Below, in pieces: positions 56,184-58,618 of a DNA stretch of 64,000 bases. Each line of letters opens with the position of its first letter. Position 1 is the first letter of the stretch. Below the pieces are notes generated by a model that saw only the letters and a program-made list of their open reading frames with translations, ran no database searches and was not told the DNA's origin. The stretch lies in NCBI RefSeq assembly GCF_013394595.1, contig NZ_CP053348.1, forward strand, positions 2,506,001 through 2,570,000. The letters run 5' to 3'. The DNA is from Winogradskyella forsetii (GTDB taxonomy: Bacteria > Bacteroidota > Bacteroidia > Flavobacteriales > Flavobacteriaceae). The position numbers and the translations under genes are program-made.

Positions 56184-57461
56184 TTATTCAAATTCCTTTA
56201 AAGTCTTCGTGATTATGGAAACACAATCCAGTAACTGATCTTTGGTCATTACCAAAGGTGGTGCAAATCGAATAATATTACCATGGGTCGGTTTTGCCAA
56301 TAAACCGTTATCCCTTAATTTTAAGCAAATATTCCAAGCGGTATCGCTGTCTTCAGAATCGTTGATTAAAATAGCATTCAACAACCCTTTTCCTCGTACC
56401 GCATTAACGATAGAACTCGTTTCAATAAACTTAGAGAGTTCGCTTCTAAATAATTGTCCTAATTCTTCTGCATTGTTTGCTAAATTCTCCTCTTTAATGA
56501 CTTCTAAAGCTGCTATTGCGACTGCTGCTGCTACAGGGTTTCCACCAAAAGTACTTCCATGGTTTCCTGGTTGAATAACGTTCATTATACTATTATTGGC
56601 CAAAACCGCAGAAACAGGATAGGCACCACCAGACAAGGCTTTTCCTAAGATTAGGATATCTGGCTTAACTTCGGGAGTTCCCGAACAATGTTTATCCGCA
56701 CAACTGCAATTACCGCAAGTCGCTAATAAACGACCTGTTCTAGCAATACCTGTTTGTACTTCGTCTGCAATAAACAAAACATTATATTTTTCACATAATG
56801 CCTTTGCTTTTGACAAATAACCGTCACTTGGTACAAATACGCCAGCTTCGCCTTGAATTGGCTCAACCAAAAAACCAGCAACATTAGAATTACTTTTCAA
56901 GGTATGTTCTAAAGCTTCAAGATTATCGTAGTCAATTTTAATAAAGCCTTTGGTATAAGGTCCAAAGTTTTTACGTGCTACAGGATCATTACTAAATGAA
57001 ATGATAGTTGTGGTTCTTCCGTGAAAGTTATTTTCGCATACCACAATTTCGGCTTCATTCTCATCAATGCCTTTGACTTCGTAAGCCCATTTTCTACAGA
57101 TTTTCAAAGCAGTTTCTACGGCTTCTGCTCCAGTATTCATTGGTAAAAGCTTATCGAACTTAAAGGTTTCAGTTGCATATTTCTCAAACTTACCCAACAT
57201 GTCATTGTAAAATGCTCTCGATGTTAAGGTCAAGGTCTGTGCTTGGTTTGTCATTGCGTTCACAATCTTAGGATGACAATGTCCTTGGTTTACTGCTGAG
57301 TATGCAGAAAGGAAATCATAATATTTTTTTCCTTCCACATCCCATACATATACACCTTCTCCTCTACTCAAAACTACAGGTAGTGGATGGTAATTGTGCG
57401 CACCATATTTGTTTTCTAAATCTATCGCTTGCTGCGATGTTACTTGGTCTAAAACAGCCAT
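56184..57461 (-). CDS. rocD: Ornithine--oxo-acid aminotransferase
   Basis: A PLP enzyme converting ornithine and 2-oxoglutarate to glutamate-5-semialdehyde and glutamate in arginine/ornithine catabolism. 425 residues, class III aminotransferase fold: [57 protein letters not shown], and the PLP-binding Lys in [17 protein letters not shown]. Between RLLA and [10 protein letters not shown] there is a Cys-rich insertion ([17 protein letters not shown]) with four Cys, not seen in eukaryotic or Bacillus enzymes; it may bind a metal or form disulfides. Monocistronic in appearance. Confidence 0.93.
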
Positions 57462-57774
57462 TTTAATTTAATTTAAGGTTTATGCCTTAGTAAAAGGCAC
57501 CGTTCAACATTGCTAACAATGCAAACATGAATAATTAAATCTCGCTTAGCGAGTTCCTTATCTACCTTTTTCCTTTCAGCCTTTGCTCACAGTAACTTTA
57601 GTGAAGATGTGAAGACCGAAAATTCAGCGTGGGAAAGAAATCATCCTTAGAGGTGTGCAAATTAATAAATATTCCTGTTGTATTGAAACATAATAAGGCC
57701 TTTTTCAATACCAGATTTATGAATTATTAAAAAGTATTTTATTGGCAAAACAAACTATTTCTAATTAATAAAAA
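57462..57774. other. Intergenic region upstream of rocD
   Basis: 313 bp between the rocD start and the end of the toxin remnant. It has a small hairpin (CTCGC-TTA-GCGAG, 57541-57553). Reading both strands I found no convincing gene or RNA. Confidence 0.45.
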
Positions 57775-58089
57775 CTACATATTGGTCTTCATAATGTCAA
57801 GCAAAGTCTAGGGGTTTTGCCTGTTGTCCTAAAAGGCATAGATTATAATTGATGTCTCAGTTGGTTTAAAATATATACTAAAGTTTCCAAGTGAAGAAAC
57901 TCGAATGTCCTTGAAGTCCGATTATTTATAAATAAAAGGTGTATTTGCAATTTCCTTTGTATGCTTGGTTACCAAACCAACTAATTTCTTTGAAAAGGAT
58001 GCTGATTTATTTCGGTTTACCCAATACTCCAGTATACCAACGAACTGTATATCTGCTGTTCTTGTCCAGATTACATTGCGTTGAGCCAT
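57775..58089 (-). pseudogene. RelE/ParE-type toxin remnant with three in-frame stops
   Basis: Read from ATG 58089 the frame begins MAQRNVIWTRTADIQFVG, continues GILEYWVNRNKSASFSKKL, and reaches TAA at 57922-57924 after 55 residues. In the same frame it resumes SDFKDIRVSSLGNFSIYF, then TAG (57829-57831) in IIIYAF-stop-DNRQNP, TAG (57808-57810), and a final TAG at 57775-57777. The order ILEYW, DFKDIRV, GNFSIYF, DNRQNP matches RelE/ParE toxins of about 95-105 residues; the AF-stop-DNRQNP stop sits where Trp (TGG) is usual. There is no frameshift, only nonsense changes, so decay may be recent or selected. Its start overlaps the antitoxin stop by 19 bp, as is usual for such pairs. Confidence 0.75.
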
Positions 58090-58313
58090 TCGAGATTCCG
58101 TTTATCCATTTCATGTTGGGAAATAAGTTCACCGTTTTTTACATCTTCTTCGCTCATTTGTAACATTAACTTTTGCTCATCGGTTAATGCTACTTTATCA
58201 GACTCTGAGGCACTAAAAGTTACAAGCTTATCAAGAGTTTCTAAAAATTCCTTATTTCTTATCGAAAGAATTTTTTCAATTAATCCGTTTCTAATTTTAT
58301 CTACATTAGCCAT
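58071..58313 (-). CDS. Putative type II antitoxin
   Basis: 80 residues from ATG 58313 (MANVDKIRNGLIEKILSIRN); a longer frame to 58364 adds a Lys/Asn-rich stretch with no family resemblance. The protein is helical and acidic, with SEEDVKNGELISQHEMDKRNLEWL near the C-terminus, which resembles toxin-binding tails of antitoxins paired with RelE/ParE toxins. The call rests mainly on position: the toxin remnant starts inside its last codons. The frame is intact, so it could still regulate itself or neutralise toxins encoded elsewhere. Confidence 0.7.
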   Translation of the reverse strand: MANVDKIRNGLIEKILSIRNKEFLETLDKLVTFSASESDKVALTDEQKLMLQMSEEDVKNGELISQHEMDKRNLEWLNAM

Positions 58314-58462
58314 CTTATTGGATTTTCTGTTTTTGCAAATTACAAATATTCTATTTGAATTCATATTAGTATTACTCCGAAATTTTTGAAGCTAATGACG
58401 ACATTTTTAATTACAACAAAACAATGTAGTAGATTACCAAAAAATTGAGCATAACAATTGGC

Positions 58463-58470
58463 TATATTTG
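58463..58470 (+). promoter_or_regulatory. Candidate distal -7 box (TATATTTG)
   Basis: Exact TAnnTTTG followed by C, with a TTG at 58445-58447. It lies about 175 bp before rlmD, so it would give a long leader or a short untranslated RNA. Confidence 0.3.
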
Positions 58471-58618
58471 CATAGTGGTCTATAATTCTTATTTGAATGA
58501 TCTGTTATTTGTGTGTGAAATTAGCTTTACAGCATTTTAAACGCTAATGGTTTGAACTAATTAAATTTTCAAATAATTATCAAATAGCCTTTCGTCTTAT
58601 CTATTTATAAAATAAAGA

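Follow-up and report, generated by a model that had tools for sequence, protein, structure and literature searches.

The 64,000-nt stretch of Winogradskyella forsetii DNA analysed here (the window) carries a toxin gene inactivated by three nonsense codons beside an antitoxin frame that is still open. We consider it very likely that this is a horizontally acquired type II toxin-antitoxin (TA) pair in an early stage of toxin-first decay, with the antitoxin frame still standing. In this explanation, a pair made of a ParE/RelE-superfamily toxin and an unclassified 80-residue antitoxin, with the antitoxin first, would have entered this lineage by insertion between rocD and an rlmD-like gene, and nonsense mutations would then have inactivated the toxin recently. 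The antitoxin frame would still be open for two reasons: decay has a forced order, in which the toxin has to die first, and little time has elapsed.

The toxin gene and its three stop codons

The toxin frame and its lesions lie at these window positions.

57775..58089, (-) strand: ParE/RelE-superfamily toxin pseudogene, ATG at 58089 to stop at 57775, 104 codons
57922..57924, (-) strand: in-frame TAA at toxin codon 56
57829..57831, (-) strand: in-frame TAG at toxin codon 87
57808..57810, (-) strand: in-frame TAG at toxin codon 94

The original prediction described a toxin frame of about 104 codons that starts 19 bp inside the antitoxin gene and is cut by one TAA and two TAG codons. Its coordinates are right: the two genes overlap at 58071-58089 (19 bp), and the nonsense codons lie in a frame that has no frameshift. 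With the genome assembled as a single 4.5 Mb contig, it is unlikely that three separate base-call errors arose here without any indel.

The proposed profile search was run on the read-through translation with X at each of the three stops. The masked frame matched Pfam ParE_toxin (PF05016) over the whole profile with E = 2.7e-4 and 21.9 bits, just under the family cut-off of 23 bits. All 10 intact homologues scanned also matched PF05016, the congeneric one with 33.4 bits. Across 300 genomes of the same family, the closest intact, stop-free homologue had 69% identity along 102 residues (E = 7e-44). The frame is not a chance one, because it matches both PF05016 and intact homologues down to this E value, and it is RelE/ParE-like as had been claimed. 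A profile search against solved structures found no relative at E up to 0.1. All intact relatives have sense codons at the three stop positions, and the intact homologues in other genera of the family keep the gene order and the overlap. The profile match covers the domain, and the frame is no longer open to yield a toxin; it is classed as a pseudogene of the ParE_toxin family and not as an active member.

The antitoxin gene and its upstream region

The antitoxin gene and the region 5' of it are as follows.

58071..58313, (-) strand: antitoxin gene, ATG at 58313 to stop at 58071, 80 codons, open
58314..58364, (-) strand: antitoxin upstream region, in which the usual shared block is unrecognisable and an ATATTTG box remains

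The antitoxin was said to be intact, and its 80 codons indeed contain no internal stop. An in-frame ATG at 58364 would extend the protein to 97 aa, but the homology of relatives begins at the 58313 position and not at this ATG. No family among the Pfam and NCBIfam models matched the antitoxin, and a profile search against solved structures gave chance-level matches only. An AlphaFold model built from three sequences had low confidence (pLDDT 62), and a fold-based search for relatives was set aside because the model was too poor to use. The antitoxin homologues (60-78% identity) stand 5' of same-family toxins and share the short overlap with them. We therefore call it a putative antitoxin from its gene order and constant pairing, not from a profile or an assay. 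Its family is uncatalogued, lying outside Pfam and NCBIfam, and is of a Flavobacteria type.

The locus has the hallmarks of a type II module, namely two small, co-oriented and overlapping genes with the antitoxin first and a conserved pairing, and its relatives share this order and overlap. The claim of a TA locus with a nonsense-inactivated toxin is borne out, as relatives have the same pair and the stops fall on codons that are sense codons in the intact ones. The pair was probably active here formerly, and the antitoxin presumably bound its toxin at that time; it presumably has no needed function now.

In most relatives a common upstream block (CATTAGGAAAAACG...TTTTTCGGATATTTA) ends in TTTTTCGGATATTTA, roughly 20 bp 5' of where the antitoxin starts. 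This block was not recognisable at its usual place 5' of the antitoxin here. If a promoter is assumed, ATATTTG is a possible candidate for a Bacteroidetes-type -7 box. Although ATATTTG remains, antitoxin expression at this locus appears uncertain because the usual upstream block is unrecognisable.

Insertion site and distribution

The pair sits between two housekeeping genes, rocD and the rlmD-like gene, in the following segment.

57690..58597, no strand assigned: insertion that holds the pair (ends approximate), bounded by the rocD leader and the promoter region of the rlmD-like gene

Homology of the flanks to congeners stops near 57675-57690 and picks up again near 58598. The gap that separates rocD from the rlmD-like gene is 1185 bp here versus 193-295 bp in 13 of the 29 congeneric loci examined, in which both flanks are homologous. 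Therefore, the pair occupies an insertion of about 0.9 kb, both ends of which are approximate. The rlmD-like neighbour gene is present in the congeners searched. The antitoxin is carried by two of 68 congeneric genomes, the present one and G302, in which the pair and the rlmD-like gene are on different contigs. Its spread in the family is patchy (26/300 genomes). No mobility gene was seen beside the pair. Acquisition of the pair by horizontal transfer would fit both the insertion and the patchy spread.

Some other congeners have different genes in the same gap, among them a sigma-factor-like gene accompanied by a small membrane protein. The gap is variable in the genus (loci L067-L095), measuring 190-300 bp in many species, and is possibly an insertion hotspot. 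Next to it, rocD lies at 56184-57461, and a leader upstream of rocD lies at window positions 57540-57660 on the (-) strand. This leader (TCTAGGGATGATTTCTYTCCCACGCTG..TTTTC-variable loop-GAAAGRATAAAGGTAGA) is strongly conserved before rocD in all 21 aligned genomes of the genus. It occurs once per genome in 13/13 genus genomes scanned and in 0/8 genomes from other families, and a search of Rfam at E up to 1 gave no match. It might be a cis-regulatory RNA of ornithine aminotransferase that has not been previously described.

Decay of the pair in relatives

Pairs were sorted by hand from the frame translations. Both genes are open at 26 loci, and both are decayed or truncated at six (G757, G261, G110, G193, the first copy of G579, and G674). 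At 13 independent loci the toxin is broken while the antitoxin is open, and the lesions are nonsense mutations, frameshifts, or deletions at differing places. These loci are G000, JAUHYU, G120/G018 (counted once), G024, G094, G163, G042, and G584, together with the more distant members G481, G607, G715, G200, and G215. No locus in the same set had a broken antitoxin and an open toxin (13 toxin-first versus 0 antitoxin-first; sign test, p = 2.4e-4). G576, whose toxin frame is open but without a usual start codon, was left out of these counts. Several antitoxins were flagged with a stop in the searches, which was just their own terminal stop within the match. Thus, toxin-first decay is general among the relatives. 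TA biology predicts this order, since loss of the antitoxin is not possible as long as the toxin is active.

G120 and G018 (L040/L041) share 3.2 kb regions that are 96% identical, with the same toxin deletion. They are filed under two genera and represent either close relatives or a recent transfer. A single ancient toxin death common to the loci was rejected, since the lesions differ everywhere except in G120 and G018. A programmed frameshift or readthrough was likewise rejected, since the lesions differ from locus to locus.

The original prediction also suggested selection against toxicity. In this reading, the toxin would have been harmful in its host and its loss positively selected before drift took over. 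Loss is frequent in the family: among 39 loci whose antitoxin is open, 13 have a broken toxin. The suggestion is compatible with the toxin-first order. However, the toxin-first order does not need it, and neutral decay in the forced order yields the same pattern. We regard such selection as possible though rather doubtful. It bears on why the first stop arose and does not conflict with a horizontally acquired pair in toxin-first decay.

Possible selection on the antitoxin

A branch codon model was applied to the antitoxin and the toxin with stops masked (18 and 17 sequences, respectively). On the branch to the locus, dN/dS was 0.025 for the antitoxin and 0.031 for the dead toxin; both were significantly below 1, and dN/dS is a weak clock there, as the branch is long and its synonymous sites are saturated. 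Neither value differed from the background (antitoxin p = 0.19, toxin p = 0.18), in a test made weaker by the saturation. Over all dead-toxin branches dN/dS was 0.044 for the antitoxin and 0.052 for the toxin. At otherwise invariant columns, private changes were found at 6/40 in the toxin and 3/29 in the antitoxin (Fisher p = 0.72). Constraint on the antitoxin and on the dead toxin is therefore indistinguishable in this lineage. The dead toxin keeps the constraint of its live past, and thus the inactivated period is a small part of the branch. The low dN/dS of the antitoxin is uninformative on the time after inactivation, because inactivation is too recent to judge.

Judging by the stop count only, the toxin should have taken up 37-51 neutral substitutions as a median (95% range, 9-120); the private changes indicate a figure toward the lower end of this range. 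Under simple neutral decay, an unconstrained antitoxin would still be stop-free by then with a probability of about 0.13-0.21. No strain closely related to this one was found to carry an intact copy at this site, and hence the toxin death has no direct date. Neutral, recent decay is sufficient to explain the locus.

The anti-addiction role that had been proposed, or retention as an orphan antitoxin, would require selection to keep the antitoxin, either to neutralise related toxins of mobile elements or to regulate other genes. The antitoxin is open at this locus and at 12 further independent dead-toxin loci, and intact toxin relatives in other genera could arrive horizontally. Yet the constraint on the antitoxin does not exceed that on the dead toxin, and the six relatives with both genes decayed or truncated have lost or truncated the antitoxin as well. 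An intact cognate toxin was looked for elsewhere in the genome, and the toxin frame found only itself and one chance-level match (E = 0.51). The genome holds three other PF05016 toxins, each preceded by its own adjacent, dissimilar small antitoxin gene; two of these three small genes we take by eye to be ParD-like. Searches with the intact congener toxin found no relative in phages and none above 37% identity in plasmids (Empedobacter, then Riemerella). These searches gave no positive support to an anti-addiction role, possible as it is, and we consider retention by selection unlikely. It is slightly less likely still that antitoxins of this uncatalogued family have repeatedly been kept after toxin death as stand-alone immunity genes against incoming ParE-type addiction elements. 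Readthrough of the stops, or a functional 55-residue N-terminal fragment, is extremely improbable: the toxin frame is still strongly constrained on this branch by dN/dS, but there are three stops of two kinds, other relatives bear different lesions (frameshifts, deletions), and the conserved C-terminal DIRV and FWDNRQ blocks come after the first stop.

Comparison with known systems

The full-length profile match, the antitoxin-first operon, and the short overlap are those of ParE/RelE type II toxins (PF05016). Unlike these, the toxin here, whose target might have been gyrase or the ribosome, is dead, and its antitoxin has no counterpart among the Pfam and NCBIfam families or, beyond chance, among solved structures. 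Chromosomal TA loci of E. coli decay by deletions and nonsense mutations, which yield inactive toxins (PMC7167474). The present locus resembles them in the nonsense decay of a chromosomal pair and the inactivation of the toxin, whereas it belongs to another family and host, and the order of events was read from homologues in many genera. Klebsiella has abundant orphan antitoxins, for which anti-addiction has been proposed among the possible roles (PMC7192599). They similarly have no functional toxin partner, whereas the dead partner here is still recognisable next door.

Toxin-first decay of a TA pair is already known, and this locus is a further instance; taken alone, it is an ordinary TA locus in decay. 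The comparative set, with 13 toxin-first and 0 antitoxin-first cases in one antitoxin family that Pfam does not name, provides compact data for how TA modules die. The same set can be used to measure whether selection ever retains orphan antitoxins.
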